A stretch of DNA of 64,000 nt from Anadara kagoshimensis (Eukaryota > Mollusca > Bivalvia > Arcoida > Arcidae): contig CM037871.1 of the NCBI GenBank assembly GCA_021292105.1, forward strand, positions 19,091,460 through 19,155,459, written 5' to 3'. Of the stretch, positions 6,701 to 62,935 are shown one piece after another. The notes under the pieces are model-generated. The model did not search any database. It was not told the origin of the DNA and saw only the letters and a program-made list of their open reading frames with translations. Every line of letters starts with the position of its first letter. Positions within the stretch are counted from its first letter, which is position 1. Position numbers and translations under genes: made by a program.

Positions 6701-9700
6701 ATAATTATTATATAAGTATGCTATATAACATATTTAAGTCTAGCTACAATATATTATTTATAAACAGCTAAAACATCTGTATATTAAAATGTGCATTAGG
6801 CCAATACCTACAATATTCCAATATATGCCTATACAAAAAGTTTATAGTTTTTGAGATAATTAACCATTTAAGTATTCGTTTGCATCAATGACCTTGACCT
6901 TTGAACTTATGACCTTCATTCATATATCAAAATGATTGATGCGCAAATGCCTACAATATTCCAATATACATGCCTATACAAAATGTTTATAGTTTTTGAG
7001 ATAATTAACCATTTAAGTATTCATTTGCATCAATGACCTTGACCTTTAAACCTACGACCTTCATTCATATATCAAAATGATCATTAGGCCAATACCTACA
7101 ATATTCTAATATACATGCCTATACAAAAAGTTTATAGTTTCTGAGATAATTAACCATTTAAGTATTAGTTTGCATCTATGAACTTGACCTTTGAACCTAT
7201 GAACTTCATTCATATATCAAAATGATTGTTGTGCAAATGCCTACAATATTCTAATATACATGCCTATACAAAAAGTTTATAGTTTTTGAGATAATTAACC
7301 ATTTAAATATTCGTTCGCAGCTATGACCTTGACCTCTGAACCTATGACCTTCATTCATATACCAAAATGACCGTTAGGCCAATACCTACAATATTCCATT
7401 ATACATGCCTATACAAAAAGTTTATAGTTTTTGAGATAATTAACCATTTAAGTATTCGTTCAAGTCTATGACCTTGACCTTTGAACCTATAACCTTCATT
7501 CATATATCAAAATGATTGTTAGGCCAATACCTACAATATTCCAATATACATGCCTATACAAAAAGTTTATAGTTTTTGAGATAATTAACCATTTAAGTAT
7601 CTGTGAGCGTCTATGACCTTGACCTTTGAACCTATGACCTTCATTCATATATCAAAATGATCATTAGGCCAATACCTACAATATTCTAATATACATGCCT
7701 ATACAAAAAGTTTATAGTTTCTGAGATAATTAACCATTTAAGTATTAGTTTGCATCTATGACCTTGACCTTTGAACCTATGAACTTCATTCATATATCAA
7801 AATGATCGTTAGGCCAATACCTACAATATTCCAATATACATGCCTATACAAAAAGTTGATAGTTTTTTGAGATAATTAACCATTTCAGTATTTGTTTACA
7901 TCTGTGACCTTGACCTTTGAACTCATGACCTTTATTCATATATCAAATGACCATTGTGCCATTACCTACAATATTCTGATATACATGCCTATACAAAAAA
8001 TTCATAGTTTTGCAGATAATTAACTATTTTGGTATTCTTGGACATCTGTGACCTTGACCTTTGAACCCATGACCCTGATCTATGTATCAAAATGATCGTC
8101 TTGTCAATACCTACAAATAACTGAAAATCCTATGCCATTATCACAAGAAATGTTTAAAAAATAGCATTTTTTATCAAAGGTCAAAAACTGGGACATGACC
8201 TTGACCTTCGACCTTGACATCAATTGGAAGAAAATTGCAAGACAAGATCAACAGTGAAAACTCCATACAATTACCTTCAGCCGTTATGAAGTTATAACAA
8301 TAAATGACTCATTTTAAAAATTATGTAATTTTATGCAAAAACGTGTAACCTATTTTTCGTCTAATTTTCATGAAAAACACAATTTTAATGTTCCCAGGTA
8401 TGCTGAATCCAAATATCCAATCAAAATTTGCCTGCACCTTTTGGTTTCAGAGAAGAAGATTTTTTTGTGTTTTTGCTATTTTTAGTAACAGCGACCATCT
8501 TGTTGGGCGTGGCCAAACCCCGAACACAATTTTGAAATGCTGTTACCCAGGCATGATAATCACCAAGTTTCATCAAATATGGCCCAGTAGTTTTGGAGGA
8601 GAAGATTAAAATGTAAAGTTTACGCACGACGCACGACGGACAACGGACGGTGATAGATTGCAATAGCTCATCTGAGCCTTTGGCTCAGGTGAGCTAAAAA
8701 TCACATAAAATCTATCTTAGCAAGTTAAAGTCTCACATTTTCAGACTATCATTCAGGAAAATGAGATCATATAATCAAATTATAATTGGTTATTTGGTTG
8801 ATTGCTGTTTCATGTCACATCAGCAAGTTTTCAGTTATTCACAAAAAACTAATTAGTTGTTATCATTAATCTCAAGGATCTCTTTAATACAAGTTCCTGT
8901 GGTGTGTGATATTTTGCAAGTATTTCTGATATACCTTCTTTGTACTAGTGTGTGTTTATGGTGACCAAGGAAAAACTTTTCTCACTTGCGGTCAATTGGG
9001 GTTCACAGTGGTACTTTCGTAACACACCTTGGTTTTTGTAGGCTACAAACTAACCATTTGGCTTCCAGGGCCCCACAAACGCTGACAAGGTCATTCGGCG
9101 GTAAAGATCACGAAAAAAAAGCCCCCAAAATATAGGTATAAACTAACATACACATGATAGTGGTGGATTCAATATGCATAACGTAGCCTATAAAGGGCAC
9201 CAGGTTATATCCTTGGGTAGTCCGACTAATCAGCCCACTAAACCCCTATTTTGATTAAACCCCCAACAAGTAAAAAATCAAAACAGGATTTAGTGGGCTG
9301 ACTAGATGGACTAATCCTCGGGCAGTGTCAACACACTCAGACATTACACAGATTTACCTGCCGATAATAGGATTCGCCGCCGTACCACGTGATCAATACC
9401 TCTTAACGTTTGTGCAGAACATTTTGATAAACGTCAACGTTACAAATTCCCGGAATAATGTCGGTTTTACGGGAAAGCGTCATATTGTGTGATTCCATGT
9501 CCATTGGAAACAAGCGTTTCACACACACGTTAGAAGGTATCACGTGGTACAGCAGCAAACCCCATTAGACGGTCTTACATTTACACCTAGGACAATGATC
9601 TTAATCAACTCTGTATTTAATACCAGTTTTTAACTACTTGTTTATTCAGCGACACTTGTCGATCTGTCACTGGCACTTGTTAATTACAGGTGACCAAGCT

Positions 9701-16772: not shown

Positions 16773-17116
16773 TTGAGTTAAGTAATGGTGTTTAACGTCC
16801 CAGTCAAGAATATTTCACTTATATCGAGACGTCGCCAGCTATAGGCGAAAGTGCAGAAATTTTGCCTGTGCGTTGCGCTTATGGCATTATACAGCAGGGT
16901 TCTTTAGCGTGACAAGCCCACCGTGACACGGGACCTCGTTTTATTTTAAGTTCCCATCCGAAAGAACCGTGACTTTCTGTTCGTAATGCCGAGTGCTTGG
17001 CGAAAGAACAGTCACTACCCACTTTCAAGTCTTGGGTCAGACCCGGTCGGGGTTCGAACCCACGACCTCCTACTTACGGAGCGAGCACTCTACTTACTGA
17101 GCTACCACAGTGGTTA
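16773..17116 (-). mobile_element. SINE family S1, full-length copy with 15-bp target duplication
   Basis: The 15-bp sequence AATGGGATGGTAGAG flanks it at 16758-16772 and 17117-17131. On the minus strand the head reads as a tRNA-like unit with an A box (GTAGCTCAGTAAG) and B box (GGTTCGAAC), then CCCGACCGGGTCTGACCC, a conserved body and the tail CTCGATATAAGTGAAATATT. The intact duplication shows a target-primed retroposition event. The open frame at 16997-17269 overlaps this SINE and is not a gene. Confidence 0.9.
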
Positions 17117-18248: not shown

Positions 18249-21200
18249 ATGTCGAAGAGACCAGTCCGTCCACCACCACCTGTACCCAAACCAGGTATAC
18301 ATATAATGATAAGCTAAAAAATCACAAAAATGTGCAACTTAACCGAATCCAAGATCTAGAAATTTTGTGGGACAGATTGCAATGACAGTCGCTGTGCCCT
18401 CTGACGACTGTCATACAAGTTGTTTACATGATAATTATTTGCATGTATTAATTATTTCATGGAATTTACAAAAGATTTAAGTGGTGAATAAAGAATTCTC
18501 CATTTAATACACGGTTCTTGCATGACATTAAGTGAAGAAAAATAAATGACACCAGACAACCACGCCTGTCCAAGCAAATTTGAGAAGCTAATAAATCATG
18601 TTTATTGACAAGTGACAAAGGTTAATGTCGGTGACATGAAATTGTATAAACAGAATATTAACAGACAAACTATTGTTTTCAGGCAGATATTGAATTATTT
18701 TCCTTTTCCTCCTAATTGCATTCTAATCCACAGAGATCTTGAATCAGGATATTTATAAAAATCTCATCATAGATGGGTGATTTCTAGTTACTTATGATGA
18801 TATTTTTTCTAGAGTGATAATTATAAATATCCTGATTCCAGACTCCAATGTTCTAACCTTGAATACTCTATATTCCAATAAGTGAGTTGACTAATGCCTA
18901 ATGGTAAATTTTGCGCCGCAGTCAAGATAGGCAGTCAGTTCATGGAATGATGGATAGTGGACAAAACCAGAGTGTCTAGAGAAAACTCAGGGTTTTTCTT
19001 GATGCAGTCTTCCTGCATATCTGATGCAAGTTTTTCTTAATGGACCTTCAGAAATATTTCAGATTCTATGAATGGACCTCCAGAATTATTTCTGTGCATC
19101 CCATAGAACACAAAAATTAAATACATGTACATGCTGGGCTATAAATATTTTTTCAGTCTGAACAGATCTATATCGGCAGTAATATTTGAATGCTATTTAT
19201 AGTTGACAAAACGCTTGTTTGACTCGAATTATCTTTTTGTTTTAGCAAAGCGCAAATATGAAGTGGTTTTTTTTTGTGACTGTGCATCGTTTGCATGGCA
19301 TCGCAACAGAAAATTTTCCCCTTTTTTGGCAAACCTGTTATTAATAATCCCACCAATCATGACTATTTACAATGATAGTGGTTACATGTTTCCTGTTTAC
19401 AAAATCAATTGTAACATTTATCTTTACAAAGTCAATTGTAAACAAAACTTGAGCCAGCTTTAAGAGAATGTGACATCAAGTCAAATTCAACATGTTGATG
19501 GCTAAAGGTATATGGAAAATTAAAGATTTCATTGTCTCTTTTATTTCAGGTACTGTGAAGGTGGTGAAAGCACTGTATAATTATGATGCACAGCAGGTAA
19601 TATACTAAGTCTTATAATATTAACACACACCCATACACGCCCACACAGGCTAATGTCAGGGTGTTGAAAGCTCTGTAATTATGATGCACAAGTATCAATT
19701 GATATTTTTACAACATAGTCAATAGTATTATAGGGTTATTGAACTGATATTGTGAAATATTGTCCCGGGTTGACTCGACATTTGCACGAGCTTGTTCAAT
19801 AACCTTTTTATTATATAGTAAAAATAAATTTTGTTTACTTCCCACTAGTATTTCATCTCAAAATACCATTTTTTCTTGCAATACATAAATATTGCACTAG
19901 TTCTTGTAAAGGGATATAAGAACTAGTGCAGTATGACAACAACACAATCATGACATCATCAACCATGTAACAACAAACGTATGATGTCATAAATGACAGT
20001 GTCATGTGACAAAGCATGCAATATGAAAAATTGATTCTGGAAACCTCGGACTGCAACAAAGATTGTGTGCAAATATCGATATATATTGCACGCTAACACC
20101 TCAGGATTTATCCTTTAATTTCTATGTGATGCATATATTGCTATATAATAATTAATTATATAAGGGCTATCATTACAGTTATGGTGGAGTAAACTTGAGT
20201 GCCAGAAGAAACCAACTGACCTTCAGCAAACTAACTCTTCTCATACTACCACTGCGGTAGCTCAGTTGGTAGAGTGCTCGCTCCGTATGTGGGAGGTCGT
20301 GGGTTTGTGGGTCTGACCCAAGACTTGAAAGTGGGTAGTGACTGTTCTTTCGTCAAGCACTCGGCATTATGAAATGAAAGTCGCGGTTCTTTGGGATGGG
20401 AACTTAAAATAAACGAGGTCCCGTGTCACGGTGGGCTTGGCACGTTAAAGAACCCTGCTGTTTAATGCCATCAGTGCACACACAGGCAAAATTTCTGCAC
20501 CTTCGCCTATAGCTGGCGACATCTCGATATAAGTGAAATATTCTTGACTGGGACATTAAACATCATTACTCAACTCTCAACTCTTCTCATACTGAGATAT
20601 GCCCAAATGAAATTTGAATCTATACAGTGAGAGGCTCTCTGAGTTGAGTTGAGTAATGGTGTCTAACATCCTAGTCAAGAATAATTTACATATATCAAGA
20701 CTTCACCAGTTATATGCGAAGGTGCAGAAATTTTGCCTTTGTGTTGTGCTGATGGTATTATACAGCAGGGTTCTTTATCATGCCATGCCTACCCTGACAC
20801 GGGACCTTGTTTATTTTATGTTTCAATCTGAAAGATTAGAACTGTGGCTTTCATTTCGTAATGCAAAGTGCTTGGTGAAAGAACAGTCACTACCCACTTT
20901 CAACTCTTCGGTCAGACCCACGAACTCTCACTTACGGAGTGAGCACTCTACCAACTGAGCTACCACAGTATTCGTAATTATAGCTACAGAAGACACATTC
21001 AGTCCATGGGTGACATATACACAGACTGAACATAATACATGTATAATAAATTATGATAATTTTGTCTTTATCAGTATTCATGGTATTGTTGTAAATAAGT
21101 TGTGACAGTAACTCAATTTTCTTTTTCAGGAGGATGAGTTGTCATTCAAAGAAGATGACACATTGTATATCCTTGATATGGTCAGCAGTAAAGATTGGTG

Positions 21201-24200
21201 GAAAGCCAGGTGTGGAAAAAGAGAAGGGCTAATACCTAGTAACTATGGTGAGTAGAAACCACTCTTTGGGTATTTGCATGATTTCAATGGTGGCTTGAAT
21301 GAATGTCCCTCTGTCTGTCTATGTAAAATTGTGTCGGAGCCATATCTCATAGCTGCATTGGACAATTGCCATAAAACTTCACATTAATAATCTTCATGGT
21401 CCAACGGTGTGTCTTGACCTTGAACCAAGGTCATTTCATAAAGGTCAAGGTCGTGGGAACAGTATGTTTGAAAAACGTGTTCAATTATCATATCGGAAAG
21501 GTCATTAGGTCGTAGGAAAACATTAAATGTTGGGGGACAGGACATTTTGCTCTCAAGCTACAATTCTAGTTTGAATTCGGATTAGGTGTGTTGCTTCCTT
21601 CTACTAAGTTTACATTTTGTGAATATGTTTTTACAGTGAATGTTACCCCATACTTGCTGCCTACTTTAAGAAATTTGTCTTCTGCTGTTAAATTTACTGT
21701 TATAAGGGCTGCTTATTGGATGGTGAAAGAACTTAGCAACTGTTCAAGATAACATCAAAGTAATATAAAAATCGCTTCTTAACTGAGACTTTGATCTTTT
21801 GTTATTTCATATACCAGTGCATCAGGGTTCGGATTTGGCACTGGTTAAATGCCAGTGGTTTTCACAAAGTACCAGTTGAAAATATACGTACAAACAAAAA
21901 AAGTGAGTGCAAAACATGTGTGAAAAAAATAAAATTGCCAGTTGAAAATTAAGAATGCTGGTAGAAAAACTTTGTACTGGCAAACCTTTGCCAGAGGGGA
22001 GAAAAATTAAATTCTACCCCTGTGCATTTTATTTTTTCAATTGCAGTTCAAGAAAACACAGAATCTATAGATTTTCCACTTCATGAAGCAGCTAAGCGAG
22101 GAAACATTACATTTTTAGCTGAATGCATTAATAATCAGGTAAGACTGTAATTACCTACGCCATTGGTATAGTCCATCTCAGACAGAAACAAAATCTGATT
22201 CGACCCATTTTAGGTTTCTTTGTGACTTGATTACTGTAAACATATTTAATTTTGTGTGTATTTTTTTTTTTTTTTTTTTTTTTTTGCTGTATAGGAAAAT
22301 TAGACATATCCGTGTAGTTAAATTTTCGCGTTTTGAAATATGCACTATAGCACAATAAGCATAATATGATTTTCGCTCAGAATTAATTTATTGATTTGCT
22401 CGCAAAACAAATGGCAGCAAAAAAAGTGAAAATTAATTAATACATTGCGAAAATAAATGCGTTTACAGTAAATCGATTTTACCCGTTTTCTATGATCTTG
22501 ATTTCATTCATTCCAGGTTATTATGTGAGGTTGATTTTGTCCAAACTCCATTTCAGATTTTTTCTATGACATCTCTCAACTGTGGGAACTCAAATCCAAA
22601 AACTGCAGAGTGGCAACGAAATGTTATTTAAAATAAACTTATAATGTTACAATAAATAAACTTAGGTTTTATAATGTTACAATTCTAGACCTCCGACAGT
22701 GTTCATTCCAGAACGGGGCAATATGATCCTTTATTTTCTTAAGTAGCCCCATTGTTAAAGCCTTAGAAAGCCATTTTAAACCTTACATGAATGCAAAAAT
22801 ATTGATGTTTTTGTGTTTTACTGGAATTTCATATTGAAAATGGCCCCTTTCTGAAAAATCCTAAAATAAACACTGCTTAGGTATACATGTGCAATTACTT
22901 TATTACTATCCTTACAATAATTATACCCCCCGCAAACGAAGTTTGGGGGGGGGGGTATATAGGAATCACCTTGTCCGTCTGTCTGTCTGTCTGCCCGTCT
23001 GTCCGTCTGTCCCGCTTTGTGTCCGGAACAGAACTTTTGAACCGTAGCACCTAGGATTATCAAACTTGGTGTGTGGATGCATCATGGGAAGGCGATGTGT
23101 CATGTACCAAATTTAGGTCACTGTAACCTTGACTTTGACCTTTAACCTCATTGATAGTAAAACCTTGTGCATCTTCGTGTCCGGAACAGAACTTTTAAAC
23201 CGTAGCACCTAGGATTATCAAACTTGGTATGTGGATGCATCATGGGAAGGCGATGTATCATGTACCAAATTAAGGTCACTATGACCTTGACTTTGACCTT
23301 TGACATCTATGAAAGTAAAACCTTGTGCATCTTTGTGTCCGGAACAGAATTTTTGTACCGTAGCACCTAGGATTATAAAACTTGGTATGTGGATGCATAA
23401 TTGGAAGGCAATGTGTCATGTACCAAATTTAGGTCACTGTGACCTTGACTTTGACCTTTGACCTCTATGATAGTAAAACCTTGTGCATCTTCGTGTCCGG
23501 AACAGAACTTTTGTACTGTAGCACCTAGGATTATAAAACTTGGTATGTGGATGCATAATTGGAAGGCGATGTGTCATGTACCAAATTTAGGTCACTGTAA
23601 CCTTGACTTTGACCTTTGACCTATGATATGAGGGGTACCCATTTTGTGTAATCAACTCCTCTTACAGCTTTTAACCAAGAAGTCTGAAACTTTGCAGGAT
23701 GTTTCCATATACATTGAACATGTGCACCTCCTATTTTTGTTGGATTATATTATTTTGTTCATATTTTATGGGTAGATTAACTTAGTCATTTTTCAACAAT
23801 ATTCCATATGAGGGGTACTCATTTTGTGTAATCAACTCCTCTTACAGCTTTTAACAAACAAGTCTGAAACTTTACAGGATGTTTCTATATACATTGAACA
23901 TGTGCACCTCCTTTTTTGGCTGGGTTATATAGTTACTTAATTATATATGATCCAATTTTTTTAAAACTATGCATAAATATTGAGCATCATAAGAACATGT
24001 GCACCTGCCATTATCGGTTTCATCACATGTATTTTGTCGAATTATTAACATTTTCATACACAGAATTTTTCACATTACAATTTGGCCATACATACAATTT
24101 GTCCCCAGATCAAAAGTTGGGAACAGGGGTATTAGCCTCTTTCAGAGACAGTTCCAGTTTGAATTTAATCTGACCAATTCTTAGCTGTTGTGTCTAAAAA

Positions 24201-31541: not shown

Positions 31542-31589
31542 AAGCCAAGGTTCATTTCTCAATTGATCAAGACCCAGCTGGATACTTTT

Positions 31590-31638
31590 CACAACACTGA
31601 CCGGCCGTTTCGGAATACAATTTCTCATCAAAGGTGTG
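31590..31638 (-). ncRNA. Decayed hammerhead-ribozyme-like motif 1
   Basis: On the minus strand: stem-I text CACACCT, core TTGATGA (consensus CTGATGA, one change), a degraded stem II, an intact CGAAAC, then GGCC-GGTC and a stem-I partner AGTGTTGTG. Shares the flank GGACCAAAAT with the motifs at 51.7 and 57.1 kb. Probably inactive. Confidence 0.45.
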
Positions 31639-31786
31639 AAACCAATTGTTTTCAAAGGGATGACAAATTATCCTAAGGACCAAAATATATTCTTATATTA
31701 TTATCCTTTTAACTAAAATTTGAATATTTTCTTAAACGGTATAGGCAAAACGTCAGGATATTTACATGTTGCCGACCATAAGTGGA

Positions 31787-32127: not shown

Positions 32128-35100
32128 TTAGTCTGCTGCAAGAAGAGCTCCCGAAAAATAAGTCTCGGATCGGTAACTGTAACTTCTGTCCTGGCTTCTA
32201 ACTGATATTCTATCGCCAACAAAAAGGTGCAACACAACAGTTGTCGAGCCTCTATCATCAGCCGAGGGACCAGTGCTGGCGTATGCAACAATGTGATTGT
32301 TTTTCAATAGCTCTACCCATGCTCCTTGCGATGACCCCTTTATCGAAGCTATTGATAAAGAGAACATATAAAGTCCAGGTCTAGTACATGTGAATATCCC
32401 ATTTTTCAGGTTATTTCTGATGTCGTTGTCCGAACTGTAGATACTATAGTTAAAATGCAATGATGACATAGAAGAAACTGCACTGTGTAAAGAAACTGTG
32501 AATCCAATTCTTGGCGCTGAAAATTTAGATGAAACGAATATGAGTCCAAGGCGTCATAGATAATTCAAATTTTATGAACTAAGCCTCAAGCAGCACCCAC
32601 CTATACATGCTATAGTGCAGGAGGTTCCAGGTTCAGTCAAAGGTTCAATCTCCATCCTGACCCTGTATTTTTTCTCCTTCCTGTTACAGTAATGGTGTTT
32701 TACACCCCAGCTGAGAGGAGATAGTTTAATGGGTTTTTTTTTCAAATTTGGATCTATGGTTATAGTGTTTTTGATGTAACAAACTGAGCATATGTTTTAT
32801 CCCTATAAATAAGTGAAAAAGTCTGTCATGTAAAGGGGGCATTTCTTTATTACCCGACTAAAGCCGTCACATGCCAATTTTACATAACCAGTTAACACTC
32901 TACATGAGAATCAAGTAAAAAGTGAAAAGTGTAACTCAAATGTAGAACGTATACTCCCTCCCAAAACCTTAAAAGATACACAGACGACGAAAAAACATTG
33001 AACAATGTTTATTTGTAGTTAAGATGTGAAATTAATAAGTTAGTAGCTACTTATAAAGAATTTTTTTCTGCCATAGCTATGTTCAGCAAGATACACCAGA
33101 AGAAACATTGGAACAAATCAGACACTATCAATTATTTTTAGAAAAATAAATCAAGGACGAAAGTTTTTGTATACTGTCGCTGATGCGGCAAAATTTACAA
33201 CACTTGAGATATAGATGACACAAATGACAAAATGCATGATCCGAAATAATAAAAACATGCCGGATAATGTTCATTAGTAAAAGAAAAAATCTGCCAGAGA
33301 GAATGATTGTTTAAATAACATATTTGTCTGACTGACTAGACGAAACTTTCCTTTCTCGACATTTTATCAAACGATAAAATAGGGGGGGGGGTGTTTTTCG
33401 AACTTCACCATCGAAAATTGTTTTTTTCAATGACAACTTTCTTGCTATTACCACTTTTTTAGAGGTAAATGTCATTTATCGGTGTGTGATGGACATGTAT
33501 AAAATATCCATAAAGAAACCTAAAGAACAAGGTACTATGCCAATATTCAAAGTTTATAAAAAATCACCACAATATGAGCAACAACGAAATGCGCGCATGA
33601 AGCCATATTATACAAAATTAGGTCAATAGGACAATAGCCATAATTTTTTAGCCGATCAGAATGCGTGAAATGCAATGAAAGGGTCTTGGTAAAAACAGGA
33701 CTACGAGGAAAAAACTCTAAACATTTAAGCCAATCAGAATGCTTAAAGATGGTAAAATTAATTATTGCATCCTGGGCTAACGAAATCCTCACAGGATAAT
33801 TAGTCCACCAGCAAAAATACCATATAGGAAATAATGGCAATATATTTTGTCTTTGCTTAGAAACTTGCCTCAAAATATTTGTATCACTTACCATCTGTAG
33901 ACGAACATTGGGAATTATTGGTACTTGGCGATGGTGCACTTGTAGTTCCTCCATTCAAAGTTTGGTGATTTAAATTTTGTAAAGCAACTTTAAGGTCACT
34001 GTTTTCTTTACGCATTTCCTTTAATTCTGAAACGATTTATGATTATAACACTGACGATATCTTATACATGTACAACCAAAAAACTAAATATTTTTCTTAA
34101 TGTTTCATTTTCCAAATTCGGACGTGTTATAATGATGACCCGATAAGACTCAACTCAAAAATCTGCATATTATATTTTCACCAGTACGATGAAACTTTTC
34201 TATTTATTTAAATGGTGACATACCAACAGGTATAGAAATGCCAATGTTTTTTTAACAAATCGCCAAAGACGGATATTGACTTAAAAACAATTTTAGCGTA
34301 TATTTCAGAAATGTGTGGTGTGGCATAAGTTACCATTCGCCGATGGTTAAATGTATAAAGCCAAAACTTGAATTTAGATTTCATATTTCGAATAATTTGA
34401 TATTTATATGTCATCGTTGAACATTTTAGTGTTGCATTTAGTTCGTGTCGGACAGAACTAATGATTTTACTACGTCACGGTTTATGCTTTGACTGATTAT
34501 GAATGTTATTGGTCTTCAGTATTAAAATAAAAAATACACATACTAATCCATTTCCGAATCACAATTCAGAAGCAAACTAAAAACTTTGGAATCGACAAGT
34601 TAGACACGTGAACTTCCACCAGGGAAGTGAGGCCAGGTGCTCCGGAAGGTAAAGCACCTTCTGTTAAACTAGCTACACCCGCCACGTGTTTAATCAAAAC
34701 CATGTGAAAGGAACATGGAACTATGGGTTGGAAGTTAGGTCGGGTGTTCCGGATGAAAACAGATGAAAAACGTATAAATTTGCATAAACAAATTTTGCAG
34801 CATGGTTGACTAAAAAGGTTAAATAAATAAATACACTACTAGCGTTGCAGATATGAGTCATGTGAAATCTTGCCCAGTCGTCATTTGCATAGATAATACC
34901 ACAGGAACATTCCACTCCTTTTTGAAACACCCTATACTTATAACGTACATTTGCTCACAAAAAGTGATGGTAGAGGAATTTTGATTTACATAAAACAGTA
35001 ATACCAAAAACGTCACAATAGTGCTACGTCTTGTGTTCAGACGAAAAAATATATAATAATAAGAATAATATTTTCCTATATTACACTAGCTACCATTTTC

Positions 35101-47039: not shown

Positions 47040-47214
47040 TATATTATTTATTATTATTATTATTTTAAATAAAATTAGGTAGTAGTTTAATGTTGATAGC
47101 ATCATAAATAAAAGCAGGTGATATTACTGTCTTTCTCAGCAAAGCCATTAACGTCGTTATAATTTCGTGACTTACGTAAGTCATATATGACTAAGTGAAT
47201 AAACGATCTGTAAT

Positions 47215-47580
47215 CAAAAACAAACATACTAATCCATGTCTGAATCACAATCCAGAAGCAAAGTACTTTGGAACTGACAAGTTCGGTTAGACACGTAAAC
47301 TTCCACCAGGGAAGTGAGGCCGGGTGCTCCGGAAGGGTAAGCACCTCCTGTTTAGCTAACTACACCGGCCACGTGTTAAATCAAAATTGTGTGATAGGAA
47401 CATGGAACTATGAGACGTCAAATATATCCAGGGCAATCCTGGACACAGAAACATCAAACGTATCAACAATACTGTGATGACGGCCATAAAACTTTTTGAG
47501 GGCCTTGATAAGCCTTGGCTTGCAATATCCAAGCAATATTTAACAACAATTTATTTGCAAGCAGCCTACTTCGTTGTACT
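47215..47580 (-). repeat. R1 dispersed repeat, copy 12, best full-length copy
   Basis: Plus-strand view: AAACATACTAATCCATGTCT, ACACGTAAACTTCCACCAGG, GAAGTGAGGCCGGGTGCTCC, AAGCACCTCCTGTTTAGCTA, GGCCACGTGTTAAATC, GAGACGTCAAATATATCCAG, CACAGAAACATCAAACG, TGTGATGACGGCCATAAAAC, TTTTTGAGGGCCTTGATAAG, GCTTGCAATATCCAAG. It defines the ~365-400-bp length of R1. Confidence 0.8.
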
Positions 47581-51000: not shown

Positions 51001-51655
51001 CTCTCTCTCATCTTGATTATTACTACTAGCTTTCCAACAGAAAAAGACTGGCTTCGGATGTGATTATACAGTCTATATTATGAGTTAACAAATTAAGCAC
51101 GCATATGATTATTGTAAATGCAACAAAATAAATATGTATGTTTTGTTATTGTAGAATCTATTAGAATATTTTTTTCTGGTGAACATTAAGATATAAAATA
51201 CCATGTTGCCATAGAAATATGCGAATATTTATCATTAACTTTTTAATTTTTTAAAGAATTTTTACCAGTCGTCAAGGAAACCTTTTTTATATCAGAATTC
51301 GCAGAGAATATAATTTGAGAGCCCACGAATAAAACCGTAAACATATAATTTGTAGAATTTCTGTTTGATAGATAATTGGAATAGTGACTCATAACTAAAA
51401 GGTGTATAAATATTATTTGTTTGTTGACAAAAGACATGACAAAAGTGTAGTAATATAGTAGAATGCATTAAATGTACAAAATACGTGCGCTATTTCAATA
51501 TAACAATAAAGACAATAGCTTTACAAGAGCAACACATACAAACAAAGTGCTCAAATGTATTGAGCTATTTGCCAATGCCACACGAATATCAAATTAAAGT
51601 CGTATTTGTACATATGGAAACATTGTAAATACTACTAAACCTGTTTGAATTCTGC

Positions 51656-51702
51656 AACAATAGACAGCTGTTTTAGAATATAATTCATCGTCAGTGGTAC
51701 TC
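51656..51702 (-). ncRNA. Decayed hammerhead-ribozyme-like motif 2
   Basis: Minus strand: GAGTACCA, core CTGACGA (the changed position is the non-conserved U7), stem II AATTATATT, then AAAAC (consensus GAAAC, one change), loop AGCT, GTC, TATTG. Stem II lost its closing G-C pair. It shares the flanking GGTCCGAGTA text with motif 3. Confidence 0.45.
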
Positions 51703-54172
51703 GGACCAAAATATGGAAATCAAAATATTTTTAAGATGTAAAATGAATAATAGAAGGACCAAATAATTGCAAAAAATTTACAAACATGACTGTATCTCTA
51801 GTTGATGAAACATGCAGAAGCAATTGTATTGCAATTCCAGTTAAAAGGCAATTGGGGTCATGACCCTAGATGTGTATCAATTTTACCGCAATATTACTTC
51901 ATGTCCCACAAAAGGGGGTCACGTGGTCATGTGAGAGACACCAATCTGGCATGGCTTAAAACCTTATCTCACATGAGCAGGTAGGGAAGAAATGGCGCCA
52001 AGAGATAAAACAAATCAAAATATTTTTTAACAGAAAAAGTTGTAAATTACAAATTCGATAAAGGACCAAGTCCTTAATTTTGAATTTGGCACTCGCCACA
52101 CTATCTTGCATTAGCCCTTGAAATGTCATAAGCAGAAATGTTATTTTTTAAATAAATATCAAATTTTCTTATCAAACTTGTGTCGTATATGAATGTTGTT
52201 ATTAATGAGTTACTCCATGACGTCATTGTGGTCGCCAATCTCTGAAACATTTCTGAAACCTATTATCATTTGACATTTTGATAAATTTTCAAGAAATTAA
52301 ATTGTATCATTTCTTTTTTTTTCATTGCGATAACAAAATTGCAATAATTCAGAAATACCCTTTTCAGTAACAATTTATGTGCACAGCTTCCCTAAAGGTT
52401 AGTCCCAGGAAATCGTCAGAAATGTAAGTTAAGTGTTTATTGAAAGTTTCTATATACGATAATATTGGTATTTTGGTAACGGGGTGGTTGAATCGCATAC
52501 CTGAAGCTTTGGTATATATTCTCTCATGCAAAATATTTCCTTATCTAAATTTGGCTAAATATATTTTGGCCCTTTGGATATTTTCAACCCCTTGAAGAAA
52601 TCTTTATTTTAAAATCTTGGTTCAAGTACAACTCATGAGGTATTGTCTTCCAAAACTAGCGTTTATAGCTGTAAAATTAACACTGGTATACTATGTAATA
52701 TCCATAAATATGTTATATGTATTTTTTAGTATGTGTTACTATAGATTTATACAGATATAATTTGAGAATCTAATAACAATAGTTACTAACATAAAAATAT
52801 GATTTGTAGAATTTCTAATTGACAGGTCTTTGAAATCAATGACCCACTGGTAAAAGGCGTATGAATATTATGTTTTAGCTGGCGTGACTTCAATGTGGTC
52901 GCTAATATTTGACATCTAAATATCATCATTTAACATTTGATAGAAACATTAAAAGAATTATATTCAAGGAATTTCAAGTCACTGAATTGTTACATTCTGT
53001 ATGACAGTTCATCTTTTTAAATTAGCGCTGCCAGAGTTGTATGAAATGAGGAATACGTTTTTCAGTTACAAAATAAGCGCCTATCCACCATAAATGATAG
53101 TCCAAGTAAAGCGTGTTAAGGTAATCAAATGTATATGTATCTGCAGTAATGTTAGTATTTTAGTAATGATGTAGCTGAATCAAACACCTTGGCGGGTATC
53201 TTAAAGCTCTCGTAAATTCATATTTATGTTTTATGTATCTCCTAAGCATGTGTTACTATAGGTTTATACGGGTATGATTTAAGTATCTAGTAACATAAAT
53301 ATACGATTTTGTAGAGTTTCTAATGACATATCTTTGGAATCAATGACTCACTGTTTTAGGCGTATAATTATTATTTCTTAGCTGTCGTAGCTTCAATGTT
53401 GTCGCCAATCTTTGACATCTATATATCATCATTTATTATTTGATAGAAACATTAAAATATGTTCAAGGAATTTTAAGTCACTGTATTTTTTATACATTCT
53501 ATATGAAAACTCATGGTTTTTTTTTTAAAATTGGCGCTATTAAAGTTGCAAGAAATCAGAAATGACAGAAATACGTTCTTTAAAAGACAATTTAAGCACC
53601 TAGCCACCATAAATGATAGTCAAAGTAACATGTAAATCGTGTTAAGGTAAATATTTATGGATCTACAAAAATCTTGGTATTTTAGTAATGATGTAGCTGA
53701 ATCGCACACCTAGGCAGGTATCTTAAAGCTCTCGTAAATTCATACTTATGTTATATGTATCTCCTAAGCATATGTATCTATAGATTTATACGGGTATAGT
53801 AACAACCAACATAAACAAGATTTTCTGATTGACAGATCATTGGAATCAATGACTCACTAATAGATACATAGTATTTGTTTGTTGACAACAGACATGTCAG
53901 AATTCTTGTTATCTAGTGACATTATTTTCTTTGCATTGTTTAAAACGTTGTACAAAGAAAAGCTATACAGGAGCAAAATATACAATGATTTCCTTTTACT
54001 GAGCAATTTAAAGAGAAAAAGATAATTTTGATATCGTGATGTATGAACGAGTGAAAATTTCAATACTACGTTCATATATAGATACATGTATAAAGGAAAT
54101 ATTTTTAGCAACATGATGACCCACCTGGTTGTAACCTATGATGAAATATGTGAAATTTTCAAAACTGCGTTC

Positions 54173-54213
<41 letters not shown>

Positions 54214-54235
54214 TATATAATATATATATATATAT
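54173..54235. repeat. (TA)n microsatellite with palindromic interruptions
   Basis: TA dinucleotide runs interrupted by AATATA units. It lies between two copies of a short GCAACATGATGACCCACCTG-like block (about 54109 and 54250). Confidence 0.85.
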
Positions 54236-54397
54236 GAATTATGTTAAGTAACATCATGCCCCCACCTGGTCGCTGACCTTTGAACACCTATGTATGACGT
54301 CTAAGAATGTCAAGGAATTTAAAGTGAACTAGTTAAACCATTCTTCAAGTTAGCATTTTTACTTGGCAATTATTATTAAACATGTTACAGCACTGAA

Positions 54398-54445
54398 TGA
54401 CTAATTCGGTATAAAATTCTTCATCCATTAAACTCGGACCAACGG
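54398..54445 (-). ncRNA. Decayed hammerhead-ribozyme-like motif 3 (most degraded)
   Basis: Minus strand: GGTCCGAGTTTAA, TGGATGA in place of CTGATGA, an AT-rich stem-II position, CGAATT in place of CGAAAC, then AGTC. Recognised mainly through its shared flank with motif 2. Confidence 0.3.
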
Positions 54446-55775
54446 TTATTGAAATCCAAAGAACCAAAATTATTTTAACCAAACTATCAGTAATACCAAA
54501 TTTTAAAACAACTAGATAATTATAAGCATTTAATTTGTTTAATTGAAATGTATACTAATTATGTTTCACACTGTATTACATTGGGCCTTTGAAATCCAAA
54601 ACCAAAAACCTGTCATAAACTGAACTAGATTTTGGTATTCAATCTTGCATGAACTCTTGTGCATTTGTACCAAAAATTAGAAAAAAAACATGACTAAAAG
54701 CAAACTTATTGTCAGTTGACAAACTTTGACCCATTTTTTCATTAACGTTTGAGGGTTTTATAAAAAATATTTCTTGGTTCAAGAATTGAAAATATGGGAA
54801 TATTAACTCGATTATTAAGAAAATGTTGTTCTTCTTTTTCGTTTTTCTTATCTTGGCTCGGCTGTATTTTTTTTCAATGTGACATTTTTCATTTGTATAC
54901 ATAAATATGTGTTTAGTGACAAGCCATTGTGTATATTTATTTTATGTCAAGTATATCATCAGTTCTAAAAGTCTGTTTAATTAAAATGTTTAAGGACACG
55001 TCTCTTCCACCGGCAACAATGTAAGAAATTAAGTATTTGAAACGCATACCTGGACATGAATATCGAATATGTTATCATTGCATAACATGGATAGAACTCG
55101 TCTGATGTTTCAGCAACCACATACCAAAACAAAGAAGAATAAATTGTTTCACCCACCTGTTAGAGGGTTTTAATTTCACTCAAGAAAATCTTGAGATACT
55201 ATAACAATTGTCGGAGCGGAGATACTAAAGTTCAGTTATTTGCATATTTTCTTTGATTTTCTTTCTAAATATGATTCCATGTAACTTACAATTTCATAAG
55301 TTCTTTATTCTCAGTTCTTGAACATCAACAATTTTCAAATATAACGATTTAGTAGTTTTCATTTAAGATTATAATCCTACTACTACCACATGCTAGAAAA
55401 TAGAGGCTACTTCCTATTAAAATTAAAATTACCAATTTTTGAACAGGAACATAATACCTACGTGCAATATTTTTCTCATTGACCAACTTTACAACTACTT
55501 AAGATCTCTTGTGCAGTCTTAACTACATTGATAATCAGTGGTCCCAATATTTTTTGTCATGTCTTGTTTCGCCTTTTCTAACTTGTATTCTATTGTGTTC
55601 TTGATCAGGTCAGGATATGTCTTTTTGTTTCAAATACCTGTTTCTACCTTGAGTAGTTTTCGTCATATCCAATGACATATAAAATGAAAGTCATTGCTTT
55701 TTAGGCAGCGAGATTGATGTGGTAATCTTTATTAATTCTCTTATTGCACTGGTTAGTTTAATTTTCTTGGTTGCG
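54446..55775. other. AT-rich sequence, no gene seen
   Basis: No supported feature. The open frame at 54639-54902 is lysine-rich because the DNA is A/T-rich. Confidence 0.35.
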
Positions 55776-55777
55776 CA

Positions 55778-55965
55778 GGTGAGGTCGTGCTATAGTTTAT
55801 AGCTTCCATAGCACCCAGCCTGACTTCCCTGGTAGAAATTCATGTGTTTAACCTAGTTTGCCTGCTTCAAAGTGTTAGCTTTACTTTTAGATTTTGGTTC
55901 GGAGATTGATTGGTATGTTTATTTTTCCTTTGTTTTTGGATTTTGGTTCGGACATGGATTGGTAT
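55778..55965 (+). repeat. R1 dispersed repeat, copy 14, with duplicated end
   Basis: TAGCTTCCATAGCACCCAGC, TGACTTCCCTGGTAGAAATT, CATGTGTTTAACCTAGTTTG. The last ~50 bp (TTTTGGTTCGGAGATTGATT, GGTATGTTTATT) is repeated in tandem with small changes. Confidence 0.65.
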
Positions 55966-56294
55966 GTTTATTATTTATTAGTTGTAGATTCTTTGTGATA
56001 AAATACTATACTCTAAAACTTTGTCTAGTCTAGATTTATAAACATATCTTATAATCAAACCATAAACATGCAAACATGTTTATCTTTTCGAGGTTCTATC
56101 AATAGCTTCAAATATATTTCAGTTTGGACAATTTCCTTACATACCAATTTTTGCGACTCGCAGAGTCAAATTTTATCATAGCTTTTTCCTTTCTATATGA
56201 TAATTTTATATTATACATGCATTTTGTCATTTTTAATTAAAACGCATCGTATGAATTTTCAAAAATATTATTTTCCTTAAATGGTTTGTTTACT

Positions 56295-56410
56295 AAAGTT
56301 GTAATCCAAAACAAACTACCAATGTCCAAACGTCAATCAAAAGCAAGGAAAAAACTTTGAAACTGGCAAATTAGTTTTAACACGTGAATTTCCAACAGGA
56401 AAGTGGGGCC
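56295..56410 (-). repeat. R1 dispersed repeat, copy 15, partial
   Basis: Plus-strand view: CTTTGAAACTGGCAAATTAG, AACACGTGAATTTCCAACAG, GAAAGTGGGGCCG. It ends abruptly. Confidence 0.55.
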
Positions 56411-57125
56411 GCATAAATGATTTCATAAAACATTATGGAGATTTATTAAATTAATATAAAGCATTTCTGACTACTTTCGTTTTGATAAAAAAAACTACAG
56501 CAGTTTCATATTGAAAATGAAAAAAATGGTAGTTTCTATTTTCCCAATTCAACGTCGTCGATATTCATTGAACTGTTATATCTAAATGATATAAATATTT
56601 TTTTATATCCGAAAAGGCGTTGTCTTAAAGCTTATTACAAGAAAACGGTTTTAATTTTTATGTGATTCAGGCTATTAATCTCGTTTTTATTTTACATTAA
56701 ATTGATTTCTCATCAAAATGAGATCATGAAACGCATAATTTCAAATTTACATCATACGAGTAAAATTGACACATTTTTTACCTGGCAACATGCTTTTTGT
56801 CAGCCAGAAAAAGGAACAATTTTGGTAAAGTGAATTGGTGAGTGAAGAGTCCAGATCATCAGTTAAAGATTGAATGTTTGAGCAATATTTATAGATTAAG
56901 CGCAAAAGGGCATCTTAATCTTGTTATGTGACCAGAGTGAATTTGTGATTTCCGTCATAAAAGGCGTTATTAAAACCGAGTTAATGACGTTACCAAGCGT
57001 TGACAATTTGAAGTAACCGACAGCAACATTGGTGGTCTGACATCACATCACGCGTGCCGGAATAGTTTTATATCTAGGTACTGAACCAACGACTACAATA
57101 ACATACTGTACTAGTTTTAATTTTA
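56411..57125. other. AT-rich sequence, no gene seen
   Basis: No supported exon, RNA or repeat. Confidence 0.35.
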
Positions 57126-57128
57126 CAT

Positions 57129-57170
57129 CACTAGACGACCGTTTCGGAATACCTTTCCTAATCAGTAGTG
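57129..57170 (-). ncRNA. Hammerhead-ribozyme-like motif 4 (best preserved)
   Basis: Minus strand, 5' to 3': stem I CACTA; core CTGATTA (consensus CTGATGA, one change at G8); stem II GGAA with loop AGGTA and TTCC; GAAAC; four-base loop GGTC; GTC; and TAGTG, which is the exact complement of the opening CACTA. Spacing and order are those of a type I hammerhead with a 2-bp stem III, as in small metazoan retroelement ribozymes. The G8 change should abolish cleavage, so this looks like a relic. Confidence 0.6.
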
Positions 57171-57639
57171 CTTGGACCAAAATTTTGAAACTAAAATGTT
57201 TTTAATATGTTGAAAAGATACCCAAAGGACACAAAAGAGAAAATCATATTTCTCCGAACTTAGTTAAGGCAATAGTTTGTATTAGGAAGTAAACCTTAGT
57301 ATTTCAGGAATTACAGGAACTAGCATCAAATTTACAAAATCGTATATTTCTGACAATAATAAACAAGTCCCGCACGATATTATTGATTTTTAATTTTATA
57401 GGGACATGCATCTGCATGTACAAAATATATACATTCATGTTAAAACCCGTATTGCATTAAAATCATGAATAAACAGAAAACCTCTCTACACTGGGCTGTT
57501 CTTTTCTTCAAATATAGAAAGGACCTTTGCGTTATTATTTCAAAAATAAAATTACAGGTACCAAAACCATATTGGACAAACTTTGTTTCATCTTTTCAAT
57601 ATCAGTTGAGCTTGTTTAGTGATTAGGAAATTTAAATCC

Positions 57640-57815
57640 AGAGGCAAAGCAAACACTTTGAAATAGACAAATTAGGTGAATCACATCCACAAAGGAAGTA
57701 CATCCTGTTTAGCTAACTTCATCCGCCACGTGTGCAATAAAAATTGAGTGACAGGAACAAAAACTATGGGACGTCAAATTTATCAAGGGCAATCCTGGAC
57801 ACAGAGCCATCAAAC
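57640..57815 (-). repeat. R1 dispersed repeat, copy 16
   Basis: Plus-strand view: CAAACACTTTGAAATAGAC, GGAAGTACATCCTGTTTAGC, CCGCCACGTGTGCAATAAA, GGGACGTCAAATTTATCAAG and CCTGGACACAGAGCCATCAA. The middle is shortened. Confidence 0.65.
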
Positions 57816-58106
57816 TGTGATAAAATCATTCCTAAGTAACCATTATTATTAGCTTGTAATATAAATCATTGATTTCCATTAATCTTCATTGTCTTAAGAT
57901 TGACTCTGAACAACAATGTAAACAAATAAATGAAGGCAGGAAGAAAAGTTCATTAGTTCAAATATTGCAATTATATGACAATTTCGTTATTATAATTGAA
58001 GTAAATGTTTATAAGTAACATGATATAGAGATTTTTAACATCATGACTGCATCATTTGTAAAGTTAAGTAGTGCGTTATAAACTATATTTATTCTTTGAG
58101 TAGTGG

Positions 58107-58258
58107 AACCACTGCGGTAGCTCAATGGTAGAGTGCTCTCGCTCCGTAATGTGGGAGGTCATGGGTTCGAACCCCGACCGGGTCTGACCAAAGACTTGAA
58201 AGTGGGTAGTGAATGTTCTTTCGCCAAGCAATTGGCATTATGAAATGAAAGTTGTGGT
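58107..58258 (+). mobile_element. SINE family S1, 5' part only
   Basis: Clear tRNA-like head (ACTGCGGTAGCTCAATGGTA, B box GGTTCGAACCC) followed by CCGACCGGGTCTGACC, stopping after GAAATGAAAGTTGTGG. Body and tail are absent. Confidence 0.85.
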
Positions 58259-58640
58259 TATTTCATTTTATCTTGGGATCTTAAAATTGAAATAAATAAT
58301 TTTCGTCCTTTTTGATTACTTTCTCTATATATACTAAAAGTATGGTGGCTTTTATGTGCTATTTCAATTTTTCGTATTCAAAGCGCCCGCAAAAGCAAAA
58401 AAGCAAAATATATGGCGCGACCAAGTGCCAAATGCTCCGCGAATTTAAAGCGACACAAATTTTAGCTTTTCGCGTCGGTGCTTGTTAGCGTTTCTGAAGG
58501 CGAAAAAGCGAACTGGCACAAATCAGCCACTATACAAAAGTAATAAAAAGTTGGTTACATAGGTATTTCAAAAAAAAAAAAAAAAAAAAAACAGTGCAGA
58601 TACTGCTCTACTTTCATAACTTTGGGAAGCCACCTTTTTA

Positions 58641-58803
58641 TTGGGTTCGAACCCCGAACGGGTCTGACCCAAGACCTTAAAGTTGAGTAGTGACTATTTT
58701 TTCGCCAAACACTCGGCGTTACGAAATGTCTATAGCTGGCCGACGTCTCGATATCAGCGAAATATTCTTGACTGGGATGTTCAACACCATTACTCAACTC
58801 AAC
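58641..58803 (+). mobile_element. SINE family S1 with internal deletion
   Basis: The B box (GGGTTCGAACCCC) and first body part are present to GCGTTACGAAATG. It then jumps to CTATAGCTGGCCGACGTCTC and the normal tail ending ATTACTCAACTC. The A-box half is missing. Confidence 0.8.
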
Positions 58804-59232
58804 TCCGCACACTGCTGAAAAGGTCAAATAAAGTTTAGCATACTGTATCTATTATACTGTTAAAGCATACATCATAAGGTTTATAGAAAAAAGAATGATC
58901 CCTGTTGTTATATCCAGTCTATTGAGATACAATATTTCAAAGGTATTAACTTCACATATGTTCAATTAATTAACCAAACAGAAAAAATGGAAAAGAAAGT
59001 GAAAGAAGAAGGTGAAATTTTATTAACAGAGAAATTGTAAATAATGACAACAGTATTTTTCACATAGATACATAGAAAAGAATTTTGCAATGTACCCATG
59101 GTTGTTATGGTCCTCAAGTTGTAATGTAAGTGAGGTGGTCTACTAATAGTCTCATTTGCTTGTGTGTGATACAATTTATTGAATTGTTTCATAATATAAT
59201 GAAAATAATAATAATAATAATAAAACTTTTAG
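58804..59232. other. AT-rich sequence, no gene seen
   Basis: No supported feature. An (AAT)n tract of about eight units is at 59200-59224. Confidence 0.4.
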
Positions 59233-59482
59233 TATAGGTAAACAACATTGACCTATCCGCTTAACCTTTGATTTAAATATTCATTATGGACGTGTAAATT
59301 TAAGTAAAAGGGATCACGCTTGTATCTTTCGTCTACCTGATGTGAACACTAATCATGGACAATGTACATATGTATTAACTGTGAATCCTTACGTTACCTA
59401 TGTATTGGGTAGACCCTCCTATATGAATATTCCTAATGAAAGGTCAAACGAACAGGTCAATGTTGTTTACCTATACATCAAT
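59233..59482. mobile_element. MITE, ~250 bp, ends GTATAGGTAAACAACATTG
   Basis: The left end AGTATAGGTAAACAACATTG and the inverse CAATGTTGTTTACCTATAC on the right are nearly identical over about 25 bp and remain similar for 35 bp. A partial second copy (GTATTGGGTGGATCC, AAGGTCAAAATTGTTTGCC) lies at 59795-59870. Confidence 0.75.
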
Positions 59483-59675
59483 AGTATTATTTTGTCATTT
59501 TATATCCAGTGTTCGTTTAAAGTTTTAAAGTTAGGAGTGTCATAATTAGTGGTGAAACATGTGTTCTATTTATTTTATTTCTTATTTTATTATACCGTTG
59601 AGGCAAAAAATGTCGGGATTGTGTTTTCTCTTTATCGTGTAAAGTAAAAAACTTTCCATAAAACAATACTGTTTA

Positions 59676-60170
59676 GTACAGGCCTGGCGAAGGTTTAACA
59701 GTACGCATGTCTGCATGGTGCGAGCACTGATCGTACACGTGTACCTTGTGTACACATTATATATAATTATTAACTGCAAATACTACTGCTACCCAGGTAT
59801 TGGGTGGATCCTTCTACATGCATATGGATAGTCCCCATTAAGGGCAAACAGAAAGGTCAAAATTGTTTGCCGCTACATATCTTATATGTGGGTGTATGAG
59901 GGAGTGAAAGACTGTAGGTGTGCTTGTGTTGTTTTTTTTTGTCACTTATATATTGTAAAATGTGAAAAATATAAATAAATACGCGCTAACTTGTGTGACT
60001 AACTACGTGGCCTCCGAGTGGCCGACATATGGATAGCAAGTGACCAAAAAGATATCTGTAGCACCTGCTGAAAAGTTAACGAGATATATAGCTAATGAGG
60101 GATCGATATGAGCTGTCGATTCAATACTAATTTATTAGCTAACTGCTAAACTTTTGACAGGTCTGTACTG
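59676..60170. mobile_element. MITE family C, copy 1 (largest, diverged)
   Basis: The left end TACAGGCCTGGCGAAGGTTTA and right end TAAACTTTTGACAGGTCTGTA are inverted copies of the family C terminus, flanked by TA. The interior is not similar to the other copies and probably contains an insertion. Confidence 0.65.
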
Positions 60171-60455
60171 AAACTCCCAACATTCGCAATTTGTCATGAA
60201 AAGATCGAACCTAATAGAAGACAAGTCTACTTAAACGTATATAATTTGATAACCTTTGACCTGAATGTTCTCAATCATTTTCATTTGTAAAAACTAGCGA
60301 CGGCTAAGGGAAGGGAAAATAAAAGAACACAATGGATTTTTATCGACCAACTGAAAATGCCGTCAAGAAGATTTATACGGTTTGTGAGACAAACCATGAT
60401 TGGACGTCGTATCTATATTTTTCATCGGGAAAAATGACTTAATGCTACATGTACA

Positions 60456-60702
60456 TTACATACCTGTCGAAAGATTAACTATAAGCTAACAAATAAAAGA
60501 AGAATCGGAAGATCAATTTCGGCCCCTTGTTGGCTAAACTTCAGCAAATTTTTCGGCAACTGGTATCCAAATTTTGGCAGATGCTGTCTGTATTTTTGGC
60601 GGCATTTCGGTAATTTGCAATCCATATTTCGACCGCTCGAAAGCTGCCGAGCTTCGACTCCGTTTCGTTAGCTCAGTGTTAAACTTTCGACAGGTATGTA
60701 AC
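60456..60702. mobile_element. MITE family C, copy 2 (247 bp)
   Basis: The ends CATACCTGTCGAAAGATTAA and TTAAACTTTCGACAGGTATG are inverted and flanked by TA. The interior is C/G-richer than its surroundings, with repeated TTTCGGC/TTCGGCAA motifs. The open frame at 60574-60801 begins inside it and is not a gene. Confidence 0.8.
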
Positions 60703-60902
60703 CGTACATATTGCTCACTGTTAATTTCTATTCAGTGCAAATGCTCTGTATCGTTATTTTATTTTTTTATGGTTTTGTTGCAGAATTTATTATGCCATTA
60801 ATTGTATTTTAATGTTTTTATAGAATTATTGTTATGCCTACTGAGTATATACATTTATCGGTTGATTGTTCAGAATGAAAGATTTTCTGATATAGAACAA
60901 AT

Positions 60903-61580
60903 ACAGTACAGACCTGTCGAAAGTTTAACACTAGGTTAACAAAATAGTGCCGAAACGAAATCACATCTTGATCCCGCGTTAGCTGTATCTCTACAGCTTT
61001 CCAATCTTCCGTCAGCTTTTCGACCACTTACTTTTTGTACAGAAATACAGCCTGCCTTAAAGGCCACCTAAATATAAGGGTCACCTGCTTATAAAGACCG
61101 TAACTCAGTTTGTAGAGTGCTCGCTCCGTATGTGGGAGGTCTTGGGTTCGAACCCCGATCGTGTCTGACCCAAGACTTAAAAGTGGGTAGTGACTGTTCT
61201 TTCGCCAAGGTTCTTTCAGATGGGAACATAAAATAAACGAGGTCCCGTGTCTTGGTAAAGAACCCTGCTGTATAATGCCATCAGCGCAACGCACAGGCAA
61301 AATTTCTGCTTCTTTATCTATAGCTGGCGACGTCTCGATTTAAGTGAAATATTCTTGACTGGGACGTAAACGCCATTATGCAACTCTTATAAAGGCCAGT
61401 AGAATTGTATCCCAATTGTTCTTTATTCATATTATTTGAATCTGTATATATAGAAGTCACCTGACCAATAAAGGCCACTTTACTGGTTCCTTCCTTTGGG
61501 TTTGGCCGTATATTATAACTTAGCCACTTGACAGTCCATCTTTGACTCCTTTTTGTTAAACTTTGGACAGGCCTGTACAG
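60903..61580. mobile_element. MITE family C, copy 3, carrying a nested S1 SINE
   Basis: The left end TACAGACCTGTCGAAAGTTT and right end AAACTTTGGACAGGCCTGTA are inverted. The S1 SINE at 61099-61386 lies inside. Confidence 0.8.
61099..61386 (+). mobile_element. SINE family S1 nested in a MITE
   Basis: tRNA-like head (GTAACTCAGTTTGTAGAGTG, B box GGGTTCGAACCCC), body and tail present with a small deletion after TTTCGCCAAG. It is flanked by CTTATAAAG followed by ACC or GCC on both sides, an approximate target duplication. The open frame at 61028-61300 spans it. Confidence 0.85.
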
Positions 61581-62596: not shown

Positions 62597-62935
62597 AACA
62601 GTTAAGTAATGGCGTTTAAAATTCCAGTCAAGAATATTTCACTTACATCGAGACGTTGCCAGATTTAGGCGAAAATGCAGAAATTTGCCTGTGCGTTGCG
62701 CAAATGGCATCATACGGCAGGGTTTTTTATCGTACTAAGCCCAACGTGACACGGGACCTCGTTTATTTTAAGTTCCAATCCGAGAGAACCATAACTTTCA
62801 TTTGGTAATGCGGAGTGCTTAGTGAAAGTACAGTCACTACCCACTTTCAAGTCTTGGGTCAGACCCGGTCAGGGATGGAACCCACGACCTCCAACATACG
62901 GAACGAGCAATCTACCAACTGAGCTATCGCAGTGC
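62597..62935 (-). mobile_element. SINE family S1, full-length copy
   Basis: Tail (GTTAAGTAATGGCGTTTAAA, AGTCAAGAATATTTCACTTA) on the left, body, and tRNA-like head (TCTACCAACTGAGCTATCGC) on the right. The B box is slightly altered (plus-strand GATGGAACCC). An AT-rich ATATATATTC flank occurs on both sides, a possible target duplication. Confidence 0.85.

Follow-up and report, generated by a model that had tools for sequence, protein, structure and literature searches.

The minus strand of the window, as we call the whole 64,000-nucleotide stretch of DNA analyzed here, carries a 42-nucleotide motif with the parts of a type I hammerhead ribozyme and one altered position in its core. This raises the question of whether such a motif is a chance arrangement, a fold kept for some other function, or the remnant of a mobile element, and, if the last, how elements of this kind insert. 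Read on the minus strand from 57170 to 57129, the motif is CACTA-CTGATTA-GGAAAGGTATTCC-GAA-AC-GGTC-GT-C-TAGTG (Table 1). Its three stems stand in the type I order, with 5 bp in stem I, 4 bp and a 5-nt loop in stem II, and 2 bp and a 4-nt loop in stem III, and they are accompanied by a GTC triplet. From hammerhead geometry, the cut site of this copy would lie between 57134 and 57133. The original prediction, made from the letters alone, had listed these parts and had named a change of G8 in CUGAUGA to U as the only one in the core. All of the parts are indeed present and G8 reads T, so that the motif departs from the intact core CTGANGA ... GAAA ... UH. We put at roughly 90% the probability that the motif is what decay has left of the hammerhead in an old, 5′-truncated, single copy of an abundant non-LTR retrozyme of ~339 bp, which spread by the route proposed below. 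The copy in the window is presumably a single, inactive relic.

Table 1. Positions of the hammerhead motif, its parts, and the family relics in the window.
Feature	Position	Strand	Basis
Degraded type I hammerhead motif, G8 changed to T	57129..57170	-	read from sequence
Stem I 5′ strand CACTA (GCACTA in family)	57166..57170	-	sequence and family alignment
Core box CTGATTA (CTGATGA in family)	57159..57165	-	sequence and family alignment
Stem-loop II GGAA-AGGTA-TTCC (GGAAT-TGT-ATTCC in family)	57146..57158	-	sequence and family alignment
GAA-AC, core box and stem III 5′ strand	57141..57145	-	sequence and family alignment
Stem III loop GGTC, then GT and C17	57134..57140	-	sequence and family alignment
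Stem I 3′ strand TAGTG	57129..57133	-	sequence
Copy A, old 5′-truncated retrozyme holding the motif	57097..57366	-	blastn E=4.4e-54; nhmmer 57362-57100, E=2.5e-56
Relic copy B, core CTCATGA ... AAAAC	52515..52699	+	nhmmer E=8.6e-40; alignment
Relic copy C, CTGACGA ... AAAAC, stem III palindrome ACAGCTGT	51633..51763	-	nhmmer E=4.2e-21
Relic copy D, TTGATGA ... GAAAC	31587..31692	-	nhmmer E=9.9e-20
Weak fifth relic	54382..54485	-	nhmmer E=3e-6; blastn E=4.6e-5

The motif belongs to a repeat family. A profile built from 88 family copies (nhmmer) finds five relics in the window and none in the reversed window. Copy A, which holds the motif, corresponds to unit positions 74-342, the last four fifths of the ~339-bp unit, at 77% identity, and its 3′ end at 57097 lies on the common 3′ terminus of the family. 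A pattern with the intact core and the same spacing has 8,669 matches genome-wide and 4 for the reversed control, and some of the listed places lie 325-378 bp apart. At C1:310542-311928, five units of ~339 bp follow one another head to tail, are ~98% alike and carry a type I hammerhead each; GC is ~33% in this one array measured. These values lie within those of retrozymes, which are tandem repeats of ~150-450 bp with a type I hammerhead per unit and a low GC content (<50%). An exact pattern for the unit-unit junction gives 970 matches versus 0. A unit of 339 bp has no room for the reverse transcriptase (RT) and GIY-YIG coding region of an autonomous Penelope-like element, and the family fits the non-LTR retrozymes of animals, a kind already published. 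The original prediction had proposed a search for intact relatives and tandem copies, and both exist, the latter with units of ~339 bp. It had agreed to give up the idea if the Rfam covariance model gave no match here and the genome held no intact relatives: the model is indeed silent on the window copy, but intact relatives abound. The kinship with retrozymes that it had suggested is thus supported by family homology and by the intact-core matches, the motif being a degraded type I hammerhead in a retrozyme-like element.

Retrozymes of the mussel Mytilus galloprovincialis are ~350-390 bp long and are made as circles (Cervera and de la Pena 2020, PMC7229834). As far as the parts of that paper drawn on here go, the circles are argued to be retrotransposition intermediates and Penelope-like elements to be strong candidates for the mobilizer, both points being left open. 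The family here shares with the mussel retrozymes the type I hammerhead, tandem arrays, low GC, and a unit too short for an RT; its unit is ~339 bp against ~350-390 bp, and its intact-core matches number 8,669 against ~5,000 copies in the mussel (PMC7229834). The two are likened by description, and it is in the mussel that RNA circles are shown. Plant LTR retrozymes are also small, non-autonomous hammerhead retroelements, but they are described in the same source as having type III hammerheads, LTRs, a PBS, a PPT, a length of ~700 bp, and GC >55%. The kind of element found here is already described in mussels and other animals, and the present family is a further member of it.

The hammerhead of the family was characterized in an alignment of 101 motifs, of which 81 come from intact-core loci, 19 from loci with G8 changed to T, and one from the window copy. 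Left out were nine of the 90 loci with an intact core, namely L054 and the eight that overlap, and also L112, one of the 20 G8-to-T loci, whose variable bases are unrelated. The majority motif is GCACTA-CTGATGA-GGAAT-TGT-ATTCC-GAAAC-GGCC-GTC-TAGTGC. Standard pairs occupy 89.9% of the cells, compared with at most 53.2% for slid versions of the stems, so that, with the 8,669 matches against 4, the intact core and its stems recur in many copies. Covariation in the stems is slightly above that of shuffles, 16 of 500 of which attain the score; 6 pairs carry changes in both partners, against a shuffle mean of 3.7, and the two stem III pairs are invariant because the search pattern fixes them. Strong covariation is unsupported in the 101 motifs, and the case for a retrozyme therefore draws on homology, on the number of copies, and on geometry. 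The Rfam model Hammerhead_1 (RF00163) lists, at E<=1, one of the eight intact-core motifs in three loci. This motif, from a unit of locus L006, covers the model in full (positions 1-45 of 45) and scores 28.1 bits, the best value in the three loci scanned and below the gathering score of 34; the other seven motifs are unlisted at that threshold. A genome-wide search with RF00163 at E<=0.001 gave no match among the 73 of 112,716 candidates that were scored, and the control genomes were silent too. The majority 8-mer of stem III, ACGGCCGT, is a perfect palindrome, and relic copy C carries another one there. A weak helix III often blocks self-cleavage of a hammerhead monomer but not that of a dimer, according to the part of PMC7761336 used here, and the weak stem III of the family, which can pair between two molecules, fits a hammerhead that would act as a dimer.

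The way in which the copies end hints at the insertion route of such elements. Copy ends were taken from 109 copies in 82 non-overlapping loci, 108 of the copies lying away from locus edges. These loci are what remains of 90 (L004-L093) after removal of the eight overlapping ones, and the 90, comprising 30 loci and 60 further regions in the first ~12 Mb of contig C1, were drawn by the intact-hammerhead pattern from 100 places listed of the 8,669. At their 3′ ends, 90 of the 108 copies stop at unit positions 331-349, 11 at 301-330, and 7 elsewhere, and the 5′ ends are scattered over the unit. The cut is placed by hammerhead geometry at unit position 304, and the common 3′ end lies ~38 nt further on. 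Copies recovered by homology only behave in the same manner, with 19 of 28 ending at 331-349 where 5.6% would be expected of random ends. In 70 distinct 3′ junctions, retained only if a stretch resembling GGTATAATATG with <=3 mismatches lay close to the end, unit sequence runs through ATATGTAATT; 53 of 70 match at its last T, and the match drops to 32 of 70 at the following base. The 90 copies that stop at the common 3′ end measure 62 to 678, anything above 678 being invisible with a reference of two units, and 20 of them are longer than one unit, including two pieces of the L008 array. Target duplications show no clear excess over shuffled flank pairs in 88 copies: exact sharing of at least 10 nt was found in 8 of 88 copies and in 19 of 440 shuffled pairs, and two of the eight are artefacts of the L008 tandem array, and a third is a minisatellite. 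The 80 pattern-selected copies do not demonstrate an accumulation of 5′ ends at the cut site: six of them start at 303-312, and three of these six (L052-L054) have near-identical flanks and hence are not independent.

As the loci were chosen by an intact hammerhead, the spanning of the cut in 90 of 90 is built in, and tail-only counts and a tail-selected sample were made to escape this bias. The exact 37-nt stretch from the cut site to the 3′ end occurs 2,228 times in the genome, and an exact GTC directly precedes it in 1,969 cases. The tail-selected sample comprised 20 of 100 places listed, all on C1, and 19 of these copies align across the hammerhead. The twentieth, L124 (G000:C1:11977308-11977419), has upstream unit sequence before its GTC and no hammerhead, as if the latter had been deleted. 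Copying that started ~38 nt past the cut on a linear, cut monomer would run off at the cut, yet the copies cross this bond, which argues that the template had kept it; the template was probably a circle or else an uncut multimeric RNA. Because the copies cross the cut bond, insertions here and in other genomes offer a direct test of both template and enzyme.

A route consistent with these ends can be proposed. Intact family members would be transcribed, and the transcripts would self-cleave at the hammerhead; as stem III is weak and palindromic, two hammerheads would tend to pair. Circles would then be closed by a host ligase, and the RT of another element, putatively a Penelope-like one, would copy the RNA back into DNA. 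From one constant internal position ~38 nt beyond the cut, copying would extend for a variable distance, at times over more than one unit. The broader proposition is that a Penelope-like RT copies animal retrozymes from RNA that is circular or uncut, starting at a constant internal position ~38 nt beyond the hammerhead cut, and that the common 3′ end, the scattered 5′ ends, the copies of more than one unit, and the lack of a consistent target duplication are the record of this process; we give it even chances of being right. Coding pieces that lie by retrozymes, at L006:103-621, L029:393-947(-), and L108:2507-2923(-), resemble what we take to be Penelope-like RT, and a Pfam search of these three pieces gave no match.

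Internal initiation of reverse transcription is described for a Penelope-like element (PMC11167929). Elements of this kind that carry hammerheads resemble the family in having the ribozyme beside the internal start of reverse transcription, in insertions that end 3′ of the ribozyme, and in tandem arrays; the use of unprocessed RNA as a template in vitro is a result for those elements (PMC11167929). They differ in encoding their own RT and endonuclease, for which a ~339-bp unit is too short, and in the anole element the start is further from the cut than here, by the positions given in that paper. Retrozymes go unmentioned in PMC11167929. The insertion signature fits the proposal of a Penelope-like mobilizer and does not prove it, since a LINE that primes at its target and has a constant 3′ end would leave much the same picture. 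The parts of PMC7229834 used do not describe, for mussel retrozymes, 5′ truncation combined with a shared 3′ end ~38 nt beyond the cut, and literature searches on retrozyme insertion, judged by titles and the openings of abstracts, turned up no paper recognizable as reporting the 3′-end signature. The window copy is an ordinary relic, and it is the family-wide signature that may matter as a lead.

The family could instead be an ordinary satellite or SINE-like family in which the hammerhead is a passenger without a role in the spread, a reading that we consider unlikely. In the tail-selected copies, mismatches amount to 16 of 285 in the core, 11 of 304 in the stems, and 19 of 437 at other sites, and the core is intact in 9 of 19. 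The core of these copies is thus no better preserved than its surroundings, as a passenger would be, and inserted copies seem, from these counts, to decay neutrally. It is also not the cut site that sets the common 3′ end, and a Penelope-like element was found to insert in vitro without a need for cleavage (PMC11167929), both of which a passenger would accommodate. The examined array, however, has kept the core in five of five units, and comparable animal repeats in the literature arise as circles after self-cleavage (PMC7229834). The intact core outnumbers the G8-to-A and G8-to-T forms together by ~8:1, which likewise speaks against a passenger, although recent copying alone could give the same ratio.

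The changed G8 of the window copy allows another alternative, namely that hammerheads with G8 changed to U are a separate lineage, maintained for some other function such as that of an RNA fold without cleavage. The 1.115-Gb genome holds two exact copies of the 42-mer, the second at G000:C15:20269374-20269415, 1.12 Mb away on the same contig, and an exact copy 1.1 Mb away could be taken to show conservation, all the more as the 42-mer is identical in the duplicates where the surrounding 1,753-column alignment is 94% identical. The second copy, however, sits in one colinear segmental duplication (92% identity over 56863-59209, 93% over 59985-61225, and 76% over 52092-55605) and is therefore no independent relative, and by our own arithmetic a 42-mer stays unchanged at 93-94% identity with a chance of ~5-7%. 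Both duplicates carry the change, which most simply predates the duplication. The G8-to-T pattern has 309 matches genome-wide versus 8 in the control, and stems and loops are varied among the 100 of these places listed. The G8-to-A pattern, with 738 matches versus 6, is 2.4 times commoner, an excess expected from transition-biased decay. A conserved G8-to-U lineage is very improbable and was rejected on the segmental duplication, the varied stems and loops, and the G8-to-A excess; the change in the window copy looks like the ordinary decay of a retrozyme relic.

The segmental duplication itself, compared between 52092-61225 and locus L003 (G000:C15:20265000-20273000), has two levels of identity, with 76% in its left part and 92-93% in its right part, the latter looking as though it had been homogenized or duplicated later. 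A separate series of seven identical G8-to-T motifs at a spacing of ~16-18 kb lies at G000:C5:32705737-32807100 and suggests a large tandem duplication.

Several results taken by themselves would suit a chance assembly. At the gathering score Rfam gives 0 matches in the whole window, and around the site (56900-57400) it gives no hammerhead up to E=10, so that the covariance-model search suggested in the original prediction brought no match. In the fold of lowest computed energy, the window stretch retains stem II but has stem I paired in another way, and fold stability is not above that of shuffles for this stretch (z -0.73), in a second comparison (z -0.48), or for the whole unit (z -0.28). 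A scan for the hammerhead layout, which required Watson-Crick pairs in a 5-bp stem I, a 4-bp stem II, and a 2-bp stem III, together with GAAA and UH, and tolerated no more than one mismatch in CTGANGA, finds a single match in the window and none in 100 shuffles that preserve dinucleotides. That hammerhead-like parts came together by chance in AT-rich animal DNA, as the changed G8, the silence of Rfam, the lack of stem I in the minimum-energy fold, and the unexceptional stability might suggest, is scarcely credible and was rejected, given the 0 of 100 shuffles, the thousands of intact-core matches in the family, and the homology of 57362-57100 (-) to the 88-copy profile (E=2.5e-56), which makes the motif more than chance and upholds the earlier judgment that its chance assembly was unlikely.

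Other repeats and one conserved domain, a C1q domain that together with the type of retrozyme suggests a bivalve source, accompany the relics in the window. A diverged tandem array with units of ~517 bp spans 52218-53985, and relic copy B lies between parts of it. Further tandem arrays are present at 5570-5917, 6780-8116, and 23015-23622, with periods of 25, 145, and 158 bp. A dispersed, tRNA-like repeat, GGTAGCTCAATGGTAGAGTG ... GGTTCGAACCCC, which is SINE-like, occurs at 58107-58264, 16960-17115, 20248-20392, 62787-62934, and other places in the window. The repeat that follows the RT-like reading frame of L006 (L006:561-860) is very abundant: BLAST gives 138 matches across the window and the fetched loci, and in the window the repeat is found at 47211-47486, 810-1070, 34521-34725, and elsewhere. 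A reading frame at 32128-32553 (-) contains a C1q domain (Pfam PF00386, E=2e-13).
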